Shown here piece after piece: positions 2,306 to 43,671 of a stretch of 64,000 nucleotides of DNA. Each line of letters opens with the position of its first letter. The first letter of the stretch is position 1. This DNA is from Neelides folsomi (taxonomy: Eukaryota; Arthropoda; Collembola; Neelipleona; Neelidae), in the NCBI GenBank assembly GCA_034687125.1, contig JAQGBZ010000058.1, positions 181,413 through 245,412 on the forward strand. Direction: 5' to 3'. The notes beneath the pieces are model-generated. The model ran no database searches, was not told the DNA's origin, and saw only the letters and a program-made list of their open reading frames with translations. The position numbers and the translations under genes were made by a program.

Positions 2306-5185
2306 CTCCAGTGGCTAGATTATTGAGGTTTTGGAATACTCCGCTTTTGACCGCAGGAGCCATGACGTCCGACTACAATCTCAACAAGACCACCAATGAA
2401 ACTCAATATTTCTTGACGACGAGAACCGGAGTGAGTTTCAAAGACATGACGGGCTTCATACTCGACCTCTTTCAAAAGTGAGTCCCGGAATAATAACATA
2501 AATCCAATTGAGCGAGTTGAAATAGACCGAGTGACCAGACACAACCTTAATCGAGTCACGAGTGTTCGAAACAAATAAGAGAACGATCTATAGATATTGA
2601 GGTGGGAGTCAGCCCATGTTTCCTACTCACCAAATCTCTTTATGATCCCTTGTAATTGAAAAAGTTGAGCTCAGGGACCGACATAAACTTCTCAAACTCA
2701 ACATTAATTAAATTCTTATTTAAAAATGAAGACTTTTTCAAAACTATCGTTATTGCTCAAGGGCCCTTTGTATGATGTGAATACCATTTAGAGGATACTA
2801 ATGGGACATGATTTTATTATTTAAGTTAATATACACTGTTTGTTATACATATATGAAATACCTACCTTGTGCAAATAATCTAAGTATAAATAAATACATG
2901 GATTAAGGGATGCTAATCCATGCTAAAATTTGGTCTAAATTAACATTGTATTAAATATGCGTATTATATCGTATTGGAATAACTAGCTCTATAAGTTTTG
3001 TAGTCTTAAAGTATTGACTATACTTCGAATTGATTTTATGCTCCATCCACAATAATATGGTCTCATATTAAATAGTTACTTGTTGTAAATATTATAATAT
3101 AATAGTTAAAACTTTGAGAAGCAAACTATTTTTGTAAATAGCAAAGTTTTCAAATTATTGGGTATGAAAGAAAAGTTTTCCGTAAGAAAATATTAACCAT
3201 AAGTTGTAAAATTTTGTAACTCAAAGCTTTATATTGTTTATATGAAAATTTAATTAGTTAATTTATTAGCAACTACAAATATCGCATTATTTTGTTTAAC
3301 CCCTTTAACAAATTCTATGGCCTTAACTATCCTACTCTACATCTACAACATTAATAGGGATTAGTTTTTGTCAAAGGTCTATATAGACAATGAAACAGCA
3401 GGCGCACATAAATTAACCCATTAACTAACTCCATATTAAGATATACTACATAATATTATATAGTAAATCTCGAAGCAGTAATCAATTTTATACAAAAATT
3501 CATGAGTAAATTATTAATGGTATTTTTTTTTAAATTATTAAAATTATTATTATTCCACTTTTGTTCATGTTGACTACTTTAGACATACTATTGTAGTACA
3601 TATTTGTAAGCTTGTTACCTATAAGTTATTTAATTACAATAACTTATACACACTCTACATTAAACATGAAATTGGTTAAACAGGCTTTGTAAGTTAATTC
3701 TTTATACCTTGTATCATTTTACAAGAATGTATAATACACTACATATTTAGATACATATCAGTATATTGCTTTTTACAATACTAGTAAACTAGTATATAAT
3801 AAATATACTAAAATATTCGAGTTTGATTAATACAGTGGCACTCGGATACAATGAACTCGGTTATAATGGAATCTCGGTTATAACGAACAGGGGGAACTAC
3901 CCCTGGCATATAGATAGGCCATGTAATGTATTTGACTCTTCTTATAATGAGCTCGGCTATAACGAACAAATAATTATTAGTGCTTCTAACATTTTTTATA
4001 GCGAACTCCCAATCTAGTTACATTTTCATTATTTCAATATGTACTCAAAATATATTCCTCATATGAAAATCTCAATATCTAGACAAAAAGGACTCGTGTA
4101 TCCCTTCAAACAATATTGACAAACAATTTTCATTAAAATGTATTACCTTTATGCCTAATATATGTACCTATATATTCTTTAATCCATATGATTGTAATTG
4201 CCTATCATGAAATTATATACCTCGGCTACAACGAACCTCGGATATAACGAACCAAATTCATTGGTCCCTTCAAGTTCACTGTATCCGAGTTGCACTGTAA
4301 TGTACATAGGTACACATGTGAGCACTTTTGTTTAAGTTTTTCCAGCATTAAAAGGATTGAAAGAGCCATGAGGGGACTTCAAGTTCTTTCGGGCTTTATG
4401 ACTAGAAGAAAGTTTGAAATTGACATTTGACACTTCTTAGAAATTCAACCACTTTTCACATTATTTACACTAAAAGGAATGATTCAAATGTCTATCAAAT
4501 ACCCTTTCAGAATCAATCATATACAAAACTTGAACTCAACATCATTTTAAGATTTTTCTTTTTCATATTATTTTTTAATCTATCTTTTCAAATACAAATA
4601 AATGCAGGCCACTTTTCAAAATTGGAAATTCAATCAATAATTACAAATTTTTATGTACCAAGCAGATATACCTACATACATAATAGTGATAGAAGGATTC
4701 TGAAGTGTTGTTTATTTTGAAATTATTTAAAAAAAGACATAAACGAGTGTTTAATTATTTCAATTTGTCGGTTTAAATATACGTTTACATATAATAAATA
4801 TACTCGATATTTAATATATCAAGATAAAATATCAATAATTCTATGTTGACAAAAACGAAGCGTAAACCACATGGCGATCGACACATTTCGTGTACATGGG
4901 AATATTTAAACGTGCTGAATACATTATTCATTTTATACTTTTTTTATATTTTGACATTGATGTTAATCAAAACTGTTTTTAGATTCGGTTGGCGTAAAGT
5001 GATGTTAATATACGAGAAAGATGGAATGCATGAAGTATCCGGAGAACACACGTGCAAATTTATAATGTCCTCAATGGTTGAAGCATTGAGGGGATTGTCG
5101 TATGGAACATTTGATCTTGAAACAAACAATGTCAACGCATCCATTCAAGAAAACTTGGCAAAAGAACTTGGAACCAAGTATTCAA
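2306..5185 (+). CDS. Partial receptor: two exons of an NPR-type ligand-binding domain
   Basis: Two exons, 2306-2477 and 4983-5185. They join cleanly: exon one ends in phase 2 (AA) before a GTGAGT donor, and exon two starts after a TTTTTAG acceptor and completes a Lys codon. The joined peptide begins A-PVARLLRFWNTPLLTAG, continues through TRTGVSFKDM and FGWRKVMLIYEKDG, and ends GTKYS before a GTAAGT donor (phase 1). Family knowledge: this order (APVAR, W-x-x-P-LLT-x-GA, LTR, GW, LxY) is the N-lobe of natriuretic-peptide-receptor/guanylate-cyclase ectodomains, and it matches exon 2 of the cyclase at 17.7 kb at roughly a third of positions by eye. Asn-x-Thr/Ser glycosylation sequons are present. 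No start codon, earlier exon or later exon (rest of ectodomain, membrane, kinase, cyclase) was recognised between 5.2 and 17.6 kb. It could be a second receptor gene, alternative 5' exons of the downstream gene, or a truncated copy. Confidence 0.75.
3833..4300. mobile_element. pogo/Tigger-like non-autonomous element with TA target sites
   Basis: The two ends are inverted copies: the left begins CAGTGGCACTCGGATACAAT and the right, read on the minus strand, begins CAGTGCAACTCGGATACAGT. Both are flanked by TA. Inside each end, variants of a CTCGG-TATAA-GAAC unit repeat, as in subterminal repeats of pogo-type elements. No transposase is encoded; a 64-codon open frame over the left half only reads through the repeats. 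It sits inside the intron between the two orphan receptor exons. The family name is inferred from the end sequence. Confidence 0.65.
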
Positions 5186-6355
5186 GTAAGTGATCCAAAC
5201 TCCCCTAATTTGATCAATAGATTACTAGAGTACTTATGGACAGCTTTAATTGTCTCTTTTGTTCATTGCCGCTTTTGCAGAATTTGGGGGTATCAGTAAA
5301 TATAAAAATAGCATAGCAAGCATTCACATATAAATATTTTTTATATGTATTTATATTGAAATTTAGGAATCTTCTCTTAAGTTGAAATATTCTTATGATT
5401 ATGCAATAGTGCAATATTAGAATTCTTGGTAATAAAATCGTTTTTGAATGACTATATCTAAGATATTGCTGGTGATGTGTAATACTATACCACATTATTA
5501 AACTGATGGGTTCATAAATGAATATGCCTACTAAACTACCATTAAGTGTGAATATTATATTATTATCATCGAATTTATAATACATATATTTATATTATAT
5601 TCAGGAGTTACAAGATTCTAGGTATTAAGCGTTTATAGAATGACACAATTCATGAGATTGAATATCCAACCCTGGCATTGATTAATGATCTTTAATTAGA
5701 GAGTTTGTATAAACTAAAATAAATGGCTAAAAAGACTTGGGTTATAAATAATTCTTTCATCATCTTCCTCTAGTTTATTAAAGTTTTCAGATTACTTATT
5801 GAGTCCGAAGTTATATTTGTATATTAAGAACAAATCCAATAATAAATTGTTTTCCTGGGATTTTATATTTTAGTCCACGTACATTATGTACGTATCTACA
5901 TATGTAATTACAATGTATTATTTATTTTAGCAAATATTTTGTATACATGTGAATTATTTTATTATATACTTATATGATTGTAGAATGACAAAAGCTTACA
6001 TCTAAAGTATAGGTATTAGGTTTATATTGTACTATGTACATATAATACATAAATACATACCTATATGGTAATACTAGTATATCTTAAATTTATTTTATTG
6101 TATCCTCCAATTTCATATCATGATTCAATTTGAAGTGTATTTATTCACTAAATCTGAGGATTTGATATAACATAAAAGCCTTGCTGCTCTGTAAGTGCCA
6201 ACGATCTTATTGTATAGATGAAATATGACTTCGGGATAAGAACATGAAAAAACTTTTAGGTTTGTTGGTCTATTTTAATCATGCATAAAGACTTCACGTA
6301 GTACAATATTAATATTTTTTGGATTTAAATCACAATTTTTAAACGTGTACTGTGT
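5186..6355. other. Non-coding AT-rich stretch after the orphan exon
   Basis: The homologue of cyclase exon 3 (VVLCAS followed by GEYVFFN) should follow here if the orphan gene continued normally. Nothing matching was seen. The frames are full of stops and the sequence is simple AT-rich DNA with TACATA-type tracts. Confidence 0.45.
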
Positions 6356-6359
6356 ATGT

Positions 6360-6840
6360 ACAGGGTGGGCTTCTAAGTTTTGAGCATTTACAATTGACTC
6401 TAATTTTTATGTTTATGAACGAATATTTATCAAAATTTAATGATACACTCTTTAAATATCATGTTATAAGAGGCTAAATTTTATTTTAAGATTTGGTCTC
6501 CGTTGACCTCAATGCAGCGCAATATCGGAAAATTCGAAATATTTAAGTAGATGAATTTCTATAAATTTCAATGGTAGCAAACGCTTCATTGATTCTTTAA
6601 CTTAACCCAAACGCTATCTGGATCCTGGAATACAATCTCTGAACAATCGCTGATTGCGAATTAAACAATGAAAGTTGAAGCATTTGAGGAAATTCCCTTC
6701 GAAACGCGTAAAATGCATGTAAAGTTGAGTTTTCGCTGTTGCACTGGATTGAGGTCAACAGAGGTTAAGTCATAAAATACAATTTAACTTTCAATAACAT
6801 GTTATATAAAGAACATGCCAGCATAAATTTATGAATATGT
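6360..6840. mobile_element. Non-autonomous element with ~100-bp imperfect inverted repeats
   Basis: The left arm (about 6421-6528) and the minus-strand reading of the right arm (about 6733-6836) share ordered blocks: a GTTGACCTCAAT core with GCAG/CCAG after it, an AATTTTATTTTA/AATTGTATTTTA block, and an ATCATGTTAT/AACATGTTAT block. The left side is preceded by TACAGGGTGG, the usual start of a Tc1/mariner-type terminus. The matching CCACCCTG right end is missing, so the right end looks truncated or diverged. No transposase reading frame is present. Confidence 0.55.
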
Positions 6841-9375
6841 CTAGTTATATAAATATTATATTTTTATTATATAGCATTCTGTGCTGAGACCCGCTATGCG
6901 TTTAATGTCTATTAAAGGGATCTCTCTAAATTGCAATTCCGTTCTGCTCCTTCTTTTGCCATCTATGAGATGGAGAAAATATGAAGTGAAAGTCGCTTTC
7001 ACTTATTTTCCCCATTCCCTGTAAGTGGGAGTCGCAGAGGCAGAAATATTCGCAAAACCACTTTTGCTCTTTTCCACAAAACAGCCTTAAATGATAGAAC
7101 TATTATACAATATTTAAATTATTTTTCATGAATACGTATTTATAAAAGTAAATACCAACACACGTTTATAATAGATTTATTAAATAACTAAAGTACTTGA
7201 GTAAAGTAAAGTGAAAACTAAAATATTAATTAAGACTAAAACTGGTTTGGATCCATTTTACTTAAATGAGGCCACAGCTCCTTTTTCTTTTGGTCAGGCA
7301 CAGCACAATTTAAACGTTTGGGGCTGTATACGATTAGCGTATTTGCAAATGGGGTTGTTCATCAGTTAAGTGTAATTAAAAGATTTTCCTTTATTTTACT
7401 TTACTACTGCATTTATCAAAATTTAATTTGGGATGGTTTTAATTTAGGCATTTGTTGGTTAATTTTGATAGTTTTCCTTGATAATTAATTAATGAATCTG
7501 AGCATTTCACCATATATCAATGCATTGACTTTCATCCGTTCATTAAAACAATTCAATAAACCCTAGAGATCAATTTGCGTAAATTAAACGGAAAGTTTGG
7601 TTGCTTCTAAACCAACAAAACAAAGGGGTTGTTTGACTGAAAGTTTCAACTAAAACAACCTGCAAAATACTACTACACACATTACATAGCTTGTTATACT
7701 TACATTTAATAAGAATATCTAATAAGTTGTTTTGTTGAAATTGATATATTTACAACGTGACTCCTTTAATTAACCACTGAATTTACTTGTAATACATATA
7801 GTAAAATAGATTAATTTAATCGAACTCTTGGATTAAATGTTCATTTTTAAATGCAGAGTGGGCCATTTAATTAAATTTTTAAAAATTAACAAACTATTTC
7901 TTAAGTTTACCATTGAATTTTTGTAAGAATTCACAATAAGTACAAATATAGGTAGTATAATATTGTATTTATATAGATTATTAAACAAGGATATCTATGT
8001 AATATAAATGTTTATACCTTACTTAATTACAAATTCGAGTAAATGGAATGTGTAATTAAATCGAATCGAAATTAAATTTAAATATGCCTCTACTATGTTT
8101 TTGAATAGAAATACTAAAGAATATTGAATAAATTGAACATTCTTAAAGTTCTTCTCAATAAGATTTGGATTGAATGAAAAGTTAAAGTTGAACTTTGGAA
8201 TTATCCAACCTTTTAAGGGAAAGTTCCGCTAGTTTAAAACAAACTTTTACTAGCTAATATTAATATGAAATTGAATGAATGTGTGGAGAGGCTTTCAACA
8301 CATCACGCTAGTATTTAGAGTAAATACTTCATCACGATTTGTGTCATTCGAGTGAAAATCTTTTGAAATCTAAGTCTCCAAAAATTTATTTCTCGTATTT
8401 TTCATCTTAGTATTTTACACCCGTGCACAAATGTTTCCCATATACTCTCATCACTATAAGTGCAACAAGGACATTTGCATCATATATTTCAAGCTTTTAC
8501 AAATGATATGGATGAGGAGCAACGCACTCGTATGCAAATAAGTAAAAATAAGAATATGTGACTATGCCACAAAAGTGTTGTTATATCATATATCGTGAGT
8601 ATTCTTTTATTCTCTTTGCTACGTGTTCAGAGTTCCTAAGTTCTGATTTTCATACAGATATTCTCGTTTTCATTCATAACTCTACTACATTTGCGTATAA
8701 TATATTAAATATATTACACCACGTAAATCACTGATATCCCCAAATCATTCAATTTACTCCTCTTGCCACTTTTAAAACCATTTTACTATTCTAACTTGAA
8801 ATACAACCCAATTTGTCCCAATAATAGTTTGAAAAGATTTCCAAACAAAATTTTTGCCCGATTCGTTCTACAAAATGGCATTCTATAAAATGATACAGAT
8901 ATGGTTTGAATTCAAAATCTAATTTTTTTATTTCTTGAGGGTATAAAAGATAAAGTTAATAACAAGAAGGAAAATGTCGTATCTCTGATAATATTCAAAG
9001 TTTTCAAAGCTTGGCAACATTATTTGGGCATCATGAATGAGTGATAATAGAGTAATAGTAATAACGACGCCTCCCACACATTTTGAATATCCATCCTTAT
9101 TCATAACTTTCCCCATTTAACAAAATGTAATTCTATGCATAAGTTGAAGCGGACTCTGTTCATAATAAATCACTTTTTGAAAAGGTGGAGAAATGAGAAG
9201 CAGATTATTCATTCCTTAATATTGAATTACCATATTAATGCCCGGCATTACAAATCATTACTTTGAGTCTCCCAAGGATGAAAAAAGCGTTTTGAAAGGG
9301 AGAGCCGGGTCAAATGTGAAGTTGTCTAAGGGAATTAATGAACAAACGCATGCGTTTGTTCTCATTCTCCCGAAA
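6841..9375. other. Non-coding stretch, nothing recognised
   Basis: AT-rich DNA without a recognisable exon, transposase or RNA gene. A 62-codon minus-strand frame near 8.9-9.1 kb has no familiar motif, poor codon structure and no splice context, so it is not called. Confidence 0.4.
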
Positions 9376-9411
9376 TTTAAAGGAGAAAGTTGAAGCAGAT
9401 TGAGTCTCAGT
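9376..9411 (+). promoter_or_regulatory. Possible core promoter: TTTAAA box and TCAGT initiator
   Basis: TTTAAA at 9376-9381 lies 33 to 28 bases before the A (9409) of a TCAGT arthropod-type initiator at 9407-9411. That is the canonical TATA-to-start spacing. GC content rises sharply just downstream. It points towards the receptor cyclase on the plus strand. Both motifs occur by chance in AT-rich DNA, so this is a prediction only. Confidence 0.35.
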
Positions 9412-9539
9412 CGGAGTGGGAAACGGCGAGTGTCAAAAGAGAATGAGTCGCTGGTGAGCTCCAGGAAATCTCACGTGTGCGTCTCGAGCCGTCTTACTTC
9501 TCATCACCGACATCGGAACTATAAGTATAAACCTCAAGT
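9409..9539 (+). other. Possible non-coding 5' leader exon
   Basis: Downstream of the initiator there is about 130 bp of GC-richer, low-repeat sequence ending at a consensus donor (CAA followed by GTAAGC, with GT at 9540). This is what a 5' untranslated exon looks like. The first coding exon of the receptor cyclase starts at 17,698 on the same strand and could be its splice partner, leaving an ~8 kb leader intron. The long open frame here (from 9400) has no familiar protein motif and is probably accidental. Confidence 0.3.
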
Positions 9540-9719
9540 AAGCTCCTTAGTTAGGTTTAGGCTTCTTGTCTCATCGGAACGAAGTTTAGAAAACATTGAA
9601 AGCCGGTTGGTAAACACTTTTCTTAATAGCCCAAGGCTTCCAAATCATTCCACTCTCATCCTCTTGCTCAACAACCGCTATCGAATATTCATGTACTTAT
9701 GTACTTAATATGCATACGT

Positions 9720-11857
9720 TAACTATGTACCATTAAGTATACGTATATGTAATACATACATATTATATTATGTACATATGTGATATATTCATATATGAAT
9801 AAGTATTTATACGTATAGGTAATGAAATGGCTTGTGAAAGAACTAAATTTTCTCAATACAATTTTTTATCGTTTAACTCTCGAATCTTGACTTAAGAGAA
9901 CCAGAAGAGATGCAGATGAAGGGAAAAGATTACAGATTTAAGAAATTCAAATTGAGAATTTTTTTGTTTCATTTTATCCATTTAACATAACTATCAGTAA
10001 ATATACAAAATGTATCTGTATACACACTACATATACCTACCATATTTTTATAATAAAATAGAAAATATTATATGAAGGTATATTAAGTAAATGGGAGATT
10101 TGAAGTCTTCCATTTTAGTTCCATTATTTATGTAACTCGTATGTAGGAAAAATGTTTTATTTTTTTTCAAGAATTGCTATAGAAGGATGGAACAGTCCTT
10201 TTATATAAGTAATAGAATATCAAAGTATATAATGTGTTATAATGTAAACATACACCAGGGTATGTATGTTTATGATTGCTATTTAATGTAATTTAGTAAT
10301 GGAGAAGTCTCTGTTTTTGACAGCCTGAAACATGGTTGCATTTTGATGATGAATCGTAGGGAAAAATTAATTTGTTGCCACAAAGAAGATTCATGTAATG
10401 GGGGAAATTGAAAAATTCCTCGAGTCTTTACCAAAATGACTTGAAGGAAAAGGTGAAAGGGAAATGTACACGTGGAATTCCTCCTGTAATGGGAGAGAAT
10501 CTGGAAATTGAATTTGAGCTGTGTCGGATGGAAAATCATAAACCATATTTCCTCTTAATGGGGAAAATATGTGAGAGATCTTTTCCTGGAGGAATAAACT
10601 TCCCACTCATGTTAAGAAACGACTCCCTGATCAATTTTGATATCGAATGTCTCCTTGGTCACCCGCGAGACTAAGGAAATTATATAACCCAGTTATTCTC
10701 TCAGAGAAAGAAAAACATTAGGACCTGACCTGAGTAAAGAGGAGCCATATCAAGTGGATGGTTCCCAATTACAATTTTATCAAGTCCAGTAAGTAAACAA
10801 GAGAAAGTTTAAGGAAAGACGATCCTTCTCATTACTCCCATACATAAGAATGGAGGGATGGAAGTAATTTGAACAAGTAGACACATCCGCTTTGACTCTC
10901 ATATTCCTCGTTAAATAAGCGGATTAACTTTCACGTCCAAATCTCTTGGAGGAAAATAAGAAGCAAATAAGGTGGAGGAGGAAACGATTAGGAATGGATC
11001 ATAATGTGCAAGAAGCTTTGTATATTTTTTGTTTATCTCTTGGTATGGGAGAGATGGGGAAAGACCATTATTCCCCTTTTCATGCAAATCTCATTTTTCA
11101 AAGTGGTGGAATTGAAAGGCCTTCCTTTTAGACCATTTAACTACGATCGCTTATCTTGACCATGGCGTGGAGAAATGGCTCATTTCTTACATGCGTTTTT
11201 GGTCACATGCTTCAATTTCACAATAAATTGATATTTGGCCTATACACAAGCTAATTCGAGTTAAGAAATATTCCTTTATGCCTATCGTTTTTATTCCTAT
11301 CATGCTACTTTTACAAATGCAATAAATAAAATATGTGCATTCGTTGAAACTACCAATGTACTTACACATGTATGCAAGTACATATTTAAGTACATAAATA
11401 TAGCATACTTAAGTATGCATAATTATGGAACATACCATACTAAATACGTAGGTATAGTACTATGTATGTATGTGTTATAGTTATATACATACCTACATAT
11501 TACCTACATGATAGTAAATGTTAATGGCTAATTTACCACATTTACTACCACTACAGATACATACAGATATTTTATATTTAAGCTATTATGTATCTATTAT
11601 AATACCAAAACACGGTACTTCAGGATGTATCCTTATGGATACTTACTATCTAGGATGCATACCTATTAGAGTACTTATGTATTTATGTACATATACCTAT
11701 ATATTATATAGGTACATACATACCTAAATACCATGTTGGAATAATAATGGAGTATATTGTAAATACAGGACCCAATTTATCCCAACTTTATGGAGAAAGC
11801 TAAGTTTGATAATTTAGTGAAGAACGTAATTTAATTACTTAAAGAAACAAATGTCAG
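9720..11857. other. Intergenic/intronic DNA with TACATA-rich tracts
   Basis: Two tracts, around 9715-9830 and 11,340-11,720, are dense in TACATA, GTATAC and CATATG-type words, a simple-sequence class scattered over the whole window. Between them (10.3-11.1 kb) the DNA is purine-rich. Several overlapping frames of 60-90 codons on both strands there show no protein family motif and no consistent splice signals. Nothing else was seen. Confidence 0.4.
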
Positions 11858-11938
11858 CCAAGCCAATTATAAAGAACATTTAAATTTTTGCCGCGATTAT
11901 TTACAAAATAATTTATATGTTCTTTATAATTGGCTTGG
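11858..11938. ncRNA. microRNA-precursor-like hairpin (candidate)
   Basis: An 81-nt fold-back: arms 11858-11889 and 11907-11938 pair over 32 positions with two mismatches, and the outer 22 bp are perfect. The loop is about 17 nt. Arm and loop sizes suit a pre-miRNA, and the stem does not continue outside. The seed does not match any microRNA I can name. Alternatives are a hairpin left by a short inverted duplication or a very small transposable-element relic. The strand cannot be decided from the sequence. Confidence 0.35.
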
Positions 11939-12780
11939 ATTTCTTTATAATTATCTTGTTTCAACTTATTTAACTACCTATATACGAACTTTTGTATTCT
12001 TTAACGTTTTCTTGAATTTTGTAAAAATTGGTTCAGATTATCAAGAATTATTTTTCATTGCAAAATGAATTTTTTGCTCAAAAATTGTTGTTGAAATGAA
12101 TGAAAAGTTAATGGGATTAAGGGAAGTTGATTGTAGACGTGTGTTATTAGGAGTCGTATGATGGTGAACCTATAGTTGAGTCGTTATATTATATCTATTC
12201 CTATCTCGAGATTCCTCCTCGTTCGTAACGCAGAGTGAACGTGATCGAAATATTTAAGAAGGAACGGAGTCTTTTAAAAGTTTAACAATATTCATTTGTT
12301 CGAATCCTCCAGTTGAAGATTAGAAATACATATAAGGCCTTTGAAACCCCAAATCCTAGCTATTGGTTTCTTTGAGGGGAATTGAGAGGTCGGGGAGAAT
12401 TAGCTATTTCCCTTGACATGAAATGAAAGAGAATCTTTTGCTAATTTCCCTCCATCATTTCCTAGCCAAACCTTTGAAGAAAATGATGGTAAGGACAGGT
12501 TCCCTGGAGCTTCGCTACTTCTCCAAATTAATCTCCCCTCCTCACTCAAATCACAAATGGAAGACCAAAAGAGTATAGTGAATAAAAGATCTCCTTTAAT
12601 CCGCTCTTTCTTCTTGGAAAAGAAATAATTTTCGCGAGGAAACTCGAGCTGACTATTTGACTATTATGATTGGGGCTGACACGACGTGTTTCCCACTTTG
12701 CCTTCTTACATATAGTATTTACACACATGACATTATTATAAATGTAACATTATCCTCTATACAGATATAATGAATTCAAG
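11939..12780. other. Non-coding spacer
   Basis: Mixed AT-rich and purine-rich DNA without recognisable coding or RNA features. It separates the hairpin from the opposed mariner pair. Confidence 0.4.
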
Positions 12781-12783
12781 GTA

Positions 12784-13637
12784 GGGCGCCCAAAGTGTCC
12801 GACTTACCCTTTGGCTTTCGCGCCGGCTCCCCGCCGCCCCCTTTATGGGGAAGGCTCGCCACGACGTGCCGCCCATCCCCCCTACCTGCGCCACTTTTAC
12901 TAAACGCCAGAAATCAAAAGCGCGACGTAATTCAAACTTCAATTCAAAATTTTCAAGCTTAATGATTTTTACAATTGAAGCGCACTTTAATAAGCAAAAC
13001 GATAAAATTTACGCAAAATCTACCAATGACATTCCAAAATCAATGATAAAAGTTACTCGTCAGCATCATCCAGCGTCGGTAATGGATTGGGTTGGGGTAA
13101 GCTGGAGAAGGAAGACCAAACTTCCCTTTGTCGAGCTGGGTGTGAAGATTCGTACAACGAATTACCAGTTCGATATCCTGAACCGATTGTTCTTCCGCTC
13201 AAAAAAGGCCTTTTTGAAGATAAAAACTGGGCATTCTTGCAGTCTGCGCCATCCCATCAAGCAAAGCAGACTCAGGAATGGTTGAAAAACAACGTTCCCA
13301 ATTTCATTTCTAAGGGAGATTGGCCCTCGGCGTCTCCAGATTTGAACCCATTGGACTACATCTGGATTAAGTTGGAGTTAGATGCCTGCTCAAAGAGTCA
13401 TACAAGTTTGGAAAACCAAAGCGTGGAAGAAATATCCAATCGTTCAAATTCGTTCTGCGATTGACAAGTGGATCACGCGTCTTAAGGATTGTGTCAAGCA
13501 CCAAGGAGGAATTTTCGAATAAGTGATATGGTGTTTTAATCGTCACATATTAAGCTTCAATTTGATACATAATTCTTGGAAAAAATAGTTTTTTAAAAAA
13601 TCGAATATTACTGTCGGAAATTTGGGTCGCACCGCCC
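12784..13637 (+). mobile_element. Mariner-like element, internally deleted, copy 1
   Basis: TA dinucleotides flank both ends (12782-12783 and 13638-13639). The termini are related inverted repeats: the left starts GGGCGCCCAAAGTGTCCGAC and the right, on the minus strand, GGGCGGTGCGACCCAAATTTCC. The internal frame from 12845 carries transposase motifs: FTIEAHFNKQNDKIYAKS, then HPASVM. After a frameshift near 13,090-13,290 come WLKNNVPNFIS and SPDLNPLDY (the third catalytic Asp, kept). The amino-terminal helix-turn-helix and the first catalytic Asp are missing, and the second Asp is lost (QSAPSH where QDSAPSH is expected). At about 0.85 kb against ~1.3 kb for an intact element it is dead. The first ~110 bp are unusually GC-rich. 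Confidence 0.85.
12845..13522 (+). pseudogene. Decayed mariner transposase, copy 1
   Basis: Coding remnant of copy 1, spread over two overlapping frames, ending near TAA at 13520-13522. It retains the HFNKQND, HPASVM, NNVPNFIS and SPDLNPLDY blocks and a short C-terminal part. It has at least one frameshift, a deleted amino terminus and only one of the three catalytic acidic residues. It is not expected to be active. The 61-codon minus-strand frame over its GC-rich 5' end is a shadow. Confidence 0.8.
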
Positions 13638-13965
13638 TAGTATACTACATACATACATAATGTTAATAAGTAGGTAATGCCTTATTTCATTTCTAAAATA
13701 TATTATACCATACATATCATATATTTATTATAAATTATTAGTAATATATTAGATATGTATGCATTAGAAACATATCAGAATAGTCTAAAACTTTTAAGAT
13801 ATATAATTTAATATATATTTTGGTATATCTAATACACTATAATATTTATAGGTATATGTATATTATAATATCTTACAATTAGTACCGTATACCAGTAGTA
13901 GTATAAGTAGTACTGTGATAATATATGGTACATGCACTAGTCCTATCCTAATATTACATATACCT

Positions 13966-14917
13966 AGTGATCAAGTATAAAAGGTCCACCTATATTTTTC
14001 GATTTTCAAGGAAACTAAGAACTTTTATTTAAAGAGTAATATACCAAATTGAAGCTTAATATATGACAATTAAAACACAATATCAATTATTCGAAAATTC
14101 CTCCTTGGTGCTTGACACACTCCTTAGGACGTGGGATCCAATTGTCAATCGCAGAACGAATTCGTTCCATGGGGTATTTCTTTGGTCAAATCTTTTTTAA
14201 GATTTCCAAACTTGTATGACGCTTTGAGCAGGCCTCTAACTCCAACTTACTCCAGATGTCGTAGTCCAAGGGATTTAATTCTGACGATGCGGCTGCCCAT
14301 TATTCATGGGAAATGAAATCCGGAACGTTATTTTTCAGCAATGTTTAGGTCATCTTTGCGCGATGGGATGGTACCGAATCTTGTTGAAAGGACTAATTTG
14401 TGCCTTTAAAAAGTCCGTTGTTAAGTGGCAGAACTGTTGGCTCAAAAATGTCGGACACAATTCTTTGCACGAAGTTTGACACCTTGCTCAACGAATCGAA
14501 GCTTTGTATTCCCTTTCTAACTAACACTTACCCACACCATTACTGAAGTTGGATGATGTTGCCGAGACACATTTCTCTTTGATTTGGAAATATCTTGCGA
14601 TTTTGCGTAGATTCGGTCATTTTGTTTATTGAAATGAGCTTCAACTGTAAAAATCTTCTCGTCAGTAAACATCATGTTCTTGTAGCGTCCATAAGCGAAG
14701 CGTCTGAGGAGTTTGTCACAACGGATTCTTCTATTGTCCTTTTGCTTTTGAGTGAAAATAACTCATCTTGAACGGCTTTAAACCAAGATCTTGTTTTATG
14801 GCAACGGACATGGTTTGGGACGAAACGCACATTTGTCTTGCTGGCTTTCTTTGAGAGCGACGAGGATTTCTTTGAAAGCGGGCTTTCAAATTTTGAATAA
14901 AGTTTTTTGTTCTCACC
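13966..14917 (-). mobile_element. Mariner-like element, copy 2, opposite orientation
   Basis: On the minus strand the sequence reads as the same transposase family as copy 1. It starts in RTKNFIQNLKARF, passes through a helix-turn-helix-like block ending LGLKPFKM, then FTDEKIFTVEAHFNKQND, then QQDSVPSHRAK, NNVPDFIS and SSELNPLDY. The first two catalytic Asp are present, while the third is replaced in SSELN. Several stops and frameshifts interrupt it. Past the stop, the 3' flank tracks copy 1 until both diverge near an AAAATCGAA block. Its own end probably lies near the TA before GTGATCAAGTATAAAAGG (about 13,966). The 5' end abuts another transposase remnant without a clear terminal repeat, so it is truncated. 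Confidence 0.8.
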
Positions 14918-14938
14918 TGAATTAATTTTTTTTCAATT

Positions 14939-15830
14939 TTAATATGTTGTTAAGATATTTAACTTTACTAAAGTCAAGTTTTCGAACCATTCTGTAAATT
15001 TCTCAGTGTTCATTTCTTGGTTATAGTCTTCATACCCGTTCTTCGAAATGAAAATTTCTAATGCTTCGGAAATAAACCCTTGATCACAACCACCATGAGT
15101 TACAATTAGACGTTTTCCTTTGCCAATGTTCGATTTCGGAATTGATTTCATGGTTTTATCAGTCCAAATAAATTCAGCTTGGTGGTTAGCATTCACCCAA
15201 GTTTCATCAATAAAATAAAACTTTGCTCCCGCTTTATCGTACTTTCTCTTTGATCTATATATACATTAAAATGCATAAATTGATAAAATTTTAATAGCTT
15301 TTGTATTATATTTAATTAAAGTACCTTAAATATTGAGTTCTCATTATTACAATATGTGATTGTTCCATTAATCGTGTCCTGTAGTCGCGTTTTGAATATT
15401 TAAAACCCAATTTTCGTATTAGTTTGTAGAAAAAGGAAATTGAACAATTTTTTTGAGCGAATTCAGGAATTCTCGCATTGGTTTCATTCAAAATATTTTT
15501 TGTCGTCACATGCTCTTTTAAAAAAATCATTGATAAAATGTATTTTTATTTTTAAAGAGTTTGCATTAGTTTTCCATCATAATAAAAAGAATTTTAATTT
15601 TATATTAAGTGCATACTTTTTGCCATTTTATCATAAATGATATTTCTTATGATATTGGCGTCAAAATTATCGATATTTGTAACTGTTGCCTTTCATGTTT
15701 TGAGGGCTCTTGAAAAAGGATATCCCGATTTTCCTGATTTACTTTAAATCTGCGTAATCTCCTGTGAATTGTTCTTTCAGATAATCCGCACATTTGTGAA
15801 AGCATTTTAGAAAGCTACAATATTATATCA
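14939..15830 (-). pseudogene. Decayed DDE transposase with FIDETWVNA motif
   Basis: Minus-strand segments, in order: a helix-turn-helix-like piece (SERTIHRRLRRFKVNQENRD, about 15,680-15,830), a middle piece (KEHVTTKNIL to LIRKLGFKYSKRDYRTRLME, 15,312-15,530), then KFYFIDETWVNANHQAEFIW and GKGKRLIVTHGGCDQGFISE down to 14,939. The ETWVN block and the GKGKR-I-HGG block are typical of a Tc1-related DDE superfamily endonuclease common in arthropod and cnidarian genomes; the Asp of FIDETW is the first catalytic residue. Stops and shifts occur between the pieces, and the part with the second Asp (DNAPYH-type) is absent where mariner copy 2 begins. It appears to have been cut by that insertion. Confidence 0.75.
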
Positions 15831-15869
15831 ATTAAAAGCTGATTTGATTTTATTAAACATATTTATATT

Positions 15870-17555
15870 GTATGAAGTAGGTATACATAATATTTCTAAT
15901 TACATTTGGAGCATTGGATTTGTAAATGAAGAGTTTCCTTCTTTGGCACTTTTCATAAAATTGTAAATGCAATATAGCATTTCTTGACATGACACGGAAT
16001 TTTTTTGTTTCTTTTTACGTTGAATTAATTTATCATTTGTTGGAGTAAAATATTCATATTAAAAGTTAGCGTAAAATATAATTATAATGCTTAAATGCAA
16101 TTAAAGCAAGCAAAAAGATTATCCATCTATGTTTATCCCTATTACAGTTTATGATTTTAGTGGGGTTGTAGTGGAGGAGGAGGTTGGGCCGAGTAATATT
16201 CCAAGGGAGCTCAGAGAATTCAAAATCACGGACATTATAAAATATTTCGAGTATAGGTATACATATTATATATAAAAATAATGTACATGTATTAAACGGT
16301 AATACCTATGTACATACAAACATAATAATACCAATGGTACTAATGTTGTACTAATATTGGTCAATTAAACTACCTGTATGTATATCTAGGTAATTAATTT
16401 CCTTTCTCATTATACATAGAAAAAGTAACTTTTCAATCATGAATATGTATGTATATAGGTACATGTTACTTTTTAATATAAGCTCTTATACTATTTTATC
16501 ATTAGCATTCCGTATTGGAATGTGAACACTACTATAAATTACATATGTACTTAAGATGGTTAACAAGTATACCTAGTATGTAAATAAATCATACAGATAC
16601 ATGTGGTTAAATACTAATTAGAATAGACTATCGTAAATAATGTACTATAAGTACCAATAATACATACATAAATAGTCATGTACATATTTGTATGTATATA
16701 AATATGTGTAAGAGTTTAAGTACGGGGAAGTATTTATTGAAAGCAGAAAGGCTTTTCAAAAAAGTTTCCTTTCACAAAAGTAAGTTTCCCTTTGGAACCC
16801 TTAGGAATCTCTCACTGGTCAAAGTTAAAATAAAAGAGGTGAGTTTGGGTTGGAAAGTTGAGAGTTTCACTCTTGATTGAATCAACCCTTCACAATTCCA
16901 AAATTATTCATGAAATCCTCTTATGCACTCCCAATCGAATTGATTTCATTTTTAATTTCTCTCTCATGACGGGAATTTATACGGAAGGAAATGTTTAATG
17001 AAAGTCTTCTGATCCCTCTTCTAATAAAAGCGAATATCATATTGCAATATAATGTGTATAAAGCATGGAAGAGATAGAAGAACTATTTTGTAATCCTTTC
17101 CATTTGCTCAATGAGATGAGAACGAGCTCCCTTTCTTTGTGTCACTCAACATGAAATGAAGGGGAATTATTTATTCGCAGAAGGAAGCCAATAAGCGAAA
17201 TTTGATTAGGAGCGTAGCGTGAAACATAAAATTCATTTACATTAATTAGCAAGGGAAGTTTCCCGAGTCGGGGAAGTTTAATTTCTGAGATGGAATTTGT
17301 CCGTGGACGGCGTTGATGGGAACGGTTCCCTCAAGGTACAAGAGAAATGAAAACTTTTTTATGCAGATGTGCTTTCTTAATATTTTCTTCAATTCGACGA
17401 GAGTCATAAACGGTATCAAAATCCTCAATACGAACTTCCGTCCAACTCCTGAAATTCTTATTTGAAATTATGACTTTTCCTTCCTCTATTTATTTATTCA
17501 ATTTGCGGTCTCATTGAAGTTGCAAGAGGAATGAGAATGGGATGAATACCCGGGT
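15870..17555. other. Non-coding stretch upstream of the receptor cyclase
   Basis: The first half (16.2-16.7 kb) is dominated by TACATA/GTATAC-like simple sequence. The second half is mixed purine-rich DNA. No exon or mobile element was recognised. The 5' untranslated region of the receptor cyclase may lie at its right-hand end. Confidence 0.4.
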
Positions 17556-17558
17556 ATT

Positions 17559-17564
17559 TATAAA
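17559..17564 (+). promoter_or_regulatory. TATAAA box candidate before the cyclase start
   Basis: A TATAAA lies 134 bases before the ATG of the receptor cyclase. A transcript starting about 30 bp downstream would have a leader of roughly 110 nt with no extra intron. There is no strong initiator at the expected place, so this competes with the more distant candidate at 9.4 kb. Confidence 0.25.
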
Positions 17565-17697
17565 TCATTTGAGCTAACTTCTCCCATGATAGGTGAAGGG
17601 CGATATGGTCCTCCTATAAGTAGTTAAACAAGAAGAATGGAATGAGGGGAACTTTGGGATTTGGACTAATATCCAATTCACAACTCTTTGAGTCACG

Positions 17698-43671
<25,974 letters not shown>

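Follow-up and report, generated by a model that had tools for sequence, protein, structure and literature searches.

An intact natriuretic-receptor-type N-lobe upstream of a receptor guanylyl cyclase in Neelides folsomi and its possible use of a shared cyclase tail

In the springtail Neelides folsomi, a 64,000-nucleotide stretch of contig JAQGBZ010000058.1 (assembly GCA_034687125.1; contig C58, positions 181413-245412, here called the window) carries near its left edge two receptor exons, A and B. These are the last two exons of a five-exon unit that lies 5' of a complete receptor guanylyl cyclase gene and is predicted to encode the leader and whole amino-terminal lobe (N-lobe) of another ligand-binding domain of the natriuretic-receptor type. 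The unit may share the cyclase gene from exon 3 onward, so that one cyclase would have two alternative N-lobes; we give this a little less than an even chance. As the slightly best of several readings, it is favored over recent truncation of a tandem paralogue and over loss of exons from the assembly. The right edge of the window is the contig end, and close examination covered 144 kb of the 245-kb contig (the window and 80 kb leftward, stretches L004-L011) in a genome assembly of 75.1 Mb and 840 contigs.

The first-pass annotation had taken exons A and B for a two-exon unit. The exons are real, but the unit is not self-contained, as three 5' exons, including the one with the ATG, sit 2.8-3.6 kb beyond the left edge of the window. 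Exon A starts mid-domain at a phase-1 acceptor that ends in CAG, and the terminal G of unit exon 3 fills its first codon (G|CT, Ala). Part of the "orphan" appearance of the unit is a window-edge effect. Exons A and B join in phase 2 (AA|A, Lys), and the five exons together give 246 amino acids in frame with zero stops. Across the 739 bp of the unit and its nine splice sites, no stop, frameshift or splice loss was found. The 3' end of exon B falls exactly at the boundary between the N-lobe and the carboxy-terminal lobe (C-lobe), and its GTAAGT donor is a perfect consensus. Third-codon GC content is 0.54 over the whole unit versus a GC content of 0.28-0.37 within its introns. The N-lobe unit is real and well formed. 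The coordinates of these exons and of the downstream gene are collected in Table 1. A probable small mobile element (3833-4297) also sits in the intron that separates exon A from exon B; its ends (CAGTGGCACTCGGATACA and TGTATCCGAGTTGCACTG) resemble inverted terminal repeats by eye.

Table 1. Exons of the N-lobe unit, the interval that follows it and the downstream receptor guanylyl cyclase (window positions unless prefixed with L011)
Feature	Position	Strand	Description
Unit exon 1	L011:6441-6602, left of window	+	ATG, hydrophobic leader; ends ...LNVTILLPFDST
Unit exon 2	L011:6732-6866, left of window	+	YMPSVMRAGQG...SLVYSMV
Unit exon 3	L011:7102-7168, left of window	+	EGIHSLMNKVNVFFGPSCELAV+G
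Exon A (fourth unit exon)	2306-2477	+	PVARLLRFWN...DLFQ; acceptor TTGTACAG, donor GTGAGT; phase 1 in, phase 2 out
Exon B (fifth unit exon)	4983-5185	+	K/FGWRK...GTKYS; acceptor TAG, donor CAA|GTAAGT; ends in phase 1
Gap without recognized receptor exon	5186-17690	+	Contains a GC-rich patch and remnants of transposases
Cyclase exon 1	17698-18001	+	Start codon, leader, N-lobe part 1; ends in phase 1
Cyclase exon 2	18630-19019	+	N-lobe part 2; acceptor phase 1, end phase 1
Cyclase exon 3	20219-20333	+	IVVLCASP...; first exon of the C-lobe, with the acceptor proposed to be shared
Further cyclase C-lobe exons	Starts 20487, 20856, 21066; end 21198 by eye	+	Profile matches
Kinase-like, linker and part of cyclase-domain exons	30724-38881	+	First and last recognized open frames

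Joined, exons A and B match the Pfam ANF_receptor domain at 6.6e-10 and the NPR-A and NPR-C chains at 4.9e-7 to 1.5e-6. These matches and the consensus splice ends bear out the first-pass view that both encode N-lobe sequence of the NPR type. Adding the upstream exons takes the ANF_receptor match to 5.2e-19, which is the best evidence that the five exons form one gene and places their product among the N-lobes of this domain family; the best match to a solved structure is NPR-C (1.8e-14). Single exons score less evenly. Pfam gave an E value of 0.06 for exon A and no match up to E 1 for exon B, while N-lobe profiles without the rows of the orphan unit detected exon A at 2.5e-4 and exon B at 3.5e-5, with unit exon 3 weak (0.03) and unit exon 2 unconvincing (0.9). 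Consequently, chance is excluded for the exon set, not for every exon.

The predicted N-lobe of the unit is old and is no fresh copy of the cyclase N-lobe. The two are 23.7% identical over 194 positions, and identity of the unit to NPR-A and NPR-C is about 30% (over 130 and 161 positions, respectively). None of the four inner introns of the unit coincides with the single N-lobe intron of the cyclase. Furthermore, a Cys of exon B (in TCKF) falls at the position of the Cys in HCFF/NCYF of the NPRs. In NPR structures, the disulphide partner of that Cys is encoded by the following exon, and cyclase exon 3 bears a Cys aligned with this partner position.

The cyclase lies 3' of the unit on the same strand. 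Its gene, starting at 17698, has the full ectodomain, kinase-like region and cyclase domain of a receptor guanylyl cyclase, with one more cyclase exon near 42.6 kb, and its spliced ectodomain matches NPR-A at 3.4e-66. For the unit, no exons of a C-lobe, a kinase-like region or a cyclase domain were recognized, and on its own it is thus no member of the receptor cyclase family. The first-pass annotation had recognized no membrane, kinase or cyclase exons before 17.7 kb. The searches of the gap (5186-17690) uphold this for the kinase-like region and the cyclase domain, and they gave no C-lobe exon either. Three C-lobe block profiles, built from the cyclase, its paralogues and NPR-A, gave at best 8.1 bits (E 0.09) in the gap and at most 8.8 bits in other stretches of the 144 kb. 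The same profiles gave 60-162 bits (E 2e-18 to 5e-50) on the exons of the cyclase itself, matches that are no independent control since cyclase rows stand inside the profiles. Profiles without these rows still detected the cyclase exons (2.2e-8; 5.4e-33; 5.4e-10 and 6.4e-4), and their best E value in the gap was 0.22, with nothing better than 0.44 for the second and third blocks. Ungapped block scores over the 12.5-kb gap revealed no C-lobe exon, and domain searches found no kinase-like or cyclase match there.

The reach of these profiles can be judged from the distant receptor cyclase paralogues on contigs C46 (stretch L014), C14 and C328 (stretch L012). With the second and third blocks, C-lobe exons were detected on C46 (3.6e-14, 1e-5, 2.5e-9 and 8.1e-6; C46 was held out of one block and absent from the other), on C14 (4.2e-9 and 2.2e-4, plus one at only 0.52) and on C328 (2.4e-5, 3.4e-5 and 0.002), that is, nine exon matches at 0.002 or better. 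The first block was weak, scoring a held-out C46 exon at 0.38 and leaving a held-out C328 exon unlisted; the gap might therefore hide a first C-lobe exon that stands alone, but hardly a whole C-lobe. For a membrane segment belonging to the unit, the search of the gap consisted of a coding-potential scan trained on 766 cyclase codons, which omitted exon B itself. Its top segment in the gap was a transposase-like open reading frame (15.8; DDE_3 at 1.4e-4), followed by the adjoining GC-rich stretch (11.1), and other printed segments scored below 6. Unit exons 1-3 and A scored 4.0-18.5; since exon B was unlisted, the scan has little power on individual exons. Likewise, a whole-genome Pfam search returned 50 rows, four of them on C58 and all four in the cyclase; it missed exons A and B and is thus weak for short exons.

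It is against this background that exons of the unit's own, too diverged or too short for recognition, have to be considered within the gap. The failures of the first block on held-out exons, and of the coding scan and the Pfam search on known ones, speak for such exons, but the sensitivity of the other two blocks to the paralogues and their silence in the gap make this continuation very improbable. No third N-lobe unit was recognized on the 144 kb, where an N-lobe profile scan that included the orphan's own rows gave only the sets of the unit and of the cyclase.

The missing exons could also have been lost in the assembly, with the C-lobe and catalytic exons that belong to exon B dropped or mis-joined in the contig. 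The Cpn60/TCP1 family, of which eight CCT genes and one HSP60 gene are expected, gave 23 matches on six contigs. The assembly, of 75 Mb in 840 contigs, is probably incomplete, so a missing tail could lie elsewhere, and repeats in the gap could have misled the assembler. A lone cyclase-domain fragment also lies on the minus strand near the end of contig C77 (stretch L025; 220757-220903), and any 5' exons of it would be expected in the direction of that end or past it. Nevertheless, the 144 kb contain no N bases, no direct repeat of at least 70 bp was found in window positions 1-48000, and no headless receptor cyclase tail, that is, one without an N-lobe, was recognized elsewhere in the assembly. 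N-lobe sequence accompanies every one of the receptor cyclases on C58, C46, C14 and C328. In these genome searches, 14 of the 30 rows of the kinase-like search fell on other contigs and were taken as ordinary kinases without inspection, and the cyclase query, with eight matches, did not reach the C-lobe on C328. Taken together, assembly loss appears improbable, with a weight that should still be kept in mind.

What speaks for sharing is the state of the unit itself. An old N-lobe without a C-lobe should have decayed, yet this one is intact over 246 codons, which is hard to explain unless it is joined to a C-lobe. Under a neutral model, the unit would stay intact with a probability of 0.34 at a divergence of 1%, falling to 0.005 at 5% and to 2e-5 at 10%; the model is rough, as it assumes an indel rate and an AT bias. 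The third-codon GC content of the unit, the aligned Cys positions in exon B and cyclase exon 3, and the GTAAGT donor of exon B also count in favor of sharing. The locus has the layout of one with shared 3' exons, namely two intact alternative 5' units before a single 3' set on the same strand and a phase-compatible junction, although this junction is not specific, being found in paralogues and offered by cyclase exon 2 as well. The proposal of the first-pass annotation, one cyclase with two N-lobes, keeps the support of an intact N-lobe with its own start and leader and with no C-lobe of its own on the 144 kb, but its argument from the junction turns out to describe an inherited feature, and it needs cyclase exon 2 to be skipped.

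The junction itself is as had been described: the donor at 5186 is phase 1, like the end of cyclase exon 2 at 19019, and joining 5185 to 20219 makes an A|TT codon (Ile) without a stop. As an argument for swapping, this match is weakened. The same junction occurs in the receptor cyclases on C46 (GCTAGA A|GTAATT ... TTACAG|TTGTTATT) and C328 (ACAAGA A|GTAAGC ... TTTCAG|TTTACGTA), both with exon ends placed by eye; the comparison covers these two of the three paralogues, the C14 junction being unplaced and left out. The phase-1 A|TT intron between N-lobe and C-lobe, common to three receptor cyclases of this genome, is most likely an old inherited family intron. As a family trait, such compatibility is expected of any paralogue and says nothing specific for swapping.

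This common inheritance is one of several points that weigh against sharing. Exon B is equally in frame with cyclase exon 2 (18630), which is also nearer; that join would yield a meaningless double N-lobe, and because exon 2 accepts phase 1, sharing requires that it be skipped. Of nine acceptors compared, those of exon 2 and cyclase exon 4 share the lowest preceding pyrimidine fraction (0.38), and exon 3 reaches 0.62. The acceptor trinucleotide, however, is poorer at exon 3 (AAG) than at exon 2 (CAG), and the comparison of the two acceptors is only mildly favorable to skipping. To the same side belong the weakness of the first C-lobe block and the probable incompleteness of the assembly. Furthermore, third-position GC is 0.38 in exon B and 0.55-0.62 in the remaining four unit exons, and the low value in exon B fits relaxed constraint. 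The branch of the unit N-lobe, 1.51 long, is compatible with relaxed constraint too, in a tree of six rows in which C14 was omitted, the NPR rows were partial and the placement of the orphan was left open.

These last two features would also suit a tandem paralogue of the receptor whose exons for the C-lobe, membrane segment, kinase-like region and cyclase domain disappeared not long ago, through deletion or the action of transposons, so that what remains is a readable but dead or dying N-lobe. No 3' exons were found, and the gap contains Mariner-like transposase remains in opposite orientations (12770-13600 and 14020-14930), with inverted arms at 13427-13585 and 14024-14182 that are 86% complementary and a DDE_3 match of 1.4e-4, below the curated cut-off, in frame 13030-13461. 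On the contrary, the five exons carry no stop, frameshift or lost splice site that would mark a pseudogene, and the neutral model demands that any loss be very recent (under about 5% divergence). In keeping with the earlier mild judgment against a truncated pseudogene, no lesion favors that option; recent truncation, though unlikely, retains appreciable weight. Next to these remains, a 108-amino-acid open frame on the minus strand (14942-15265) looks DDE transposase-like by eye; its only Pfam match is a sub-threshold one to Fringe (7.2e-4).

If the tail is shared, transcription would start at the unit's own promoter, 5' of unit exon 1, and the transcript would continue through the cyclase gene. 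Cyclase exons 1 and 2 would be skipped, the latter helped by its weak acceptor, and exon B would be spliced to cyclase exon 3. The outcome would be alternative N-lobes on one cyclase, and so probably two ligand specificities. Such a choice between promoters, in which the ancestral N-lobe/C-lobe intron serves to splice either of two anciently diverged N-lobes, each with its own leader, to one common tail (C-lobe, membrane segment, kinase-like region and cyclase domain), is put forward tentatively, at somewhat less than an even chance. The hybrid ectodomain, with the N-lobe of the unit and the C-lobe of the cyclase, scores as one continuous domain (189.9 bits, profile positions 19-352; native ectodomain, 206.8 bits). 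The score indicates a fitting boundary rather than actual production of the hybrid, and mostly reflects the homology of each half.

The initiator-like motif TCAGTC occurs once in the 941 bp before the unit ATG, at window position -4218 in a GC-rich patch (GC content up to 0.60). Two such sites occur in the 8.9 kb before the cyclase ATG, one of them (9407) also in a GC-rich patch. These promoter-like patches may be weak hints of two separate start sites. The second patch, at 9361-9537, is rich in CpG as well and is followed by a GTAAGC donor at 9538; it may be the promoter of the cyclase together with a first exon that is non-coding, 8 kb before the ATG.

The unit might also be expressed alone, as a short secreted N-lobe that ends shortly past exon B and acts as a decoy or dominant-negative partner. 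Read-through past the exon B donor adds only SK (...KYSSK) before a stop at 5191-5193, leader and N-lobe are intact, and there is a precedent in NPR-A, for which an abstract describes splice isoforms that make no cyclic GMP and impair cyclic GMP production by the normal receptor (PMC10665444). Against this, the donor is a perfect consensus, and half of a two-lobe domain with one Cys whose usual partner is in the C-lobe would be unlikely to fold well. We consider a secreted product highly improbable.

Sharing of the cyclase tail, if true, would mean that the receptor changes half of its ligand pocket but retains the same signalling output, with the N-lobe/C-lobe intron acting as a module boundary. 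Exon-by-exon annotation would then report an orphan fragment, and searches that assume one ligand per gene would miss a receptor if one gene swaps half of its pocket. This matters since many arthropod receptor cyclases have no known ligand; a 2013 survey, in the part cited here, gives ligands for two of six dipteran receptor cyclase clades (PMC3863949). If the unit is a fresh truncation, the locus is a case of ordinary gene decay. Elsewhere on C58, a neighboring gene with long coding exons occupies the region roughly 18.5 to 11 kb beyond the left window edge. A 90-amino-acid piece of it has a weak match to EPL1 (enhancer of polycomb-like; 5.6e-5, below the cut-off), and we take it to be perhaps a JADE-type chromatin gene.

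Among known systems, the NPR-type receptor cyclases such as NPR-A resemble the unit in their ANF_receptor N-lobe and aligned Cys positions, and the downstream gene is a full member of this group; unlike them, the unit has no findable C-lobe, kinase-like or cyclase exons. Their insect kin include the eclosion-hormone receptor CG10738, and a 2009 paper on this receptor reportedly describes receptor isoforms. In the clearance receptor NPR-C, both lobes of the ectodomain and a membrane segment are present. It is the closest solved structure to the unit, but only the N-lobe is present here, and the higher score comes from a longer N-terminal match and is no evidence of orthology.

No description of alternative N-lobes in any receptor cyclase, and no study of a receptor cyclase from a copepod, was found by title or abstract among the matches listed. 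The NPR-A splice isoforms are like the proposed arrangement in that several receptor forms come from one gene, and unlike it in that their abstract names no N-lobe exchange (PMC10665444); as far as that abstract goes, they are a precedent for a decoy rather than for N-lobe exchange. The closer parallel for sharing is Gr39a, in which, in the account drawn on here, four large exons (a fifth has been described) are spliced to three small conserved ones (PMC2204066). If the cyclase tail is shared, this locus would resemble Gr39a, as that account presents it, in having alternative 5' parts of a receptor before one shared 3' part and a marked divergence between the alternatives. By the same account, the alternatives of Gr39a are single large exons, whereas both units of the present locus are multi-exon, so that the sharing proposed here would also call for an internal acceptor to be skipped.

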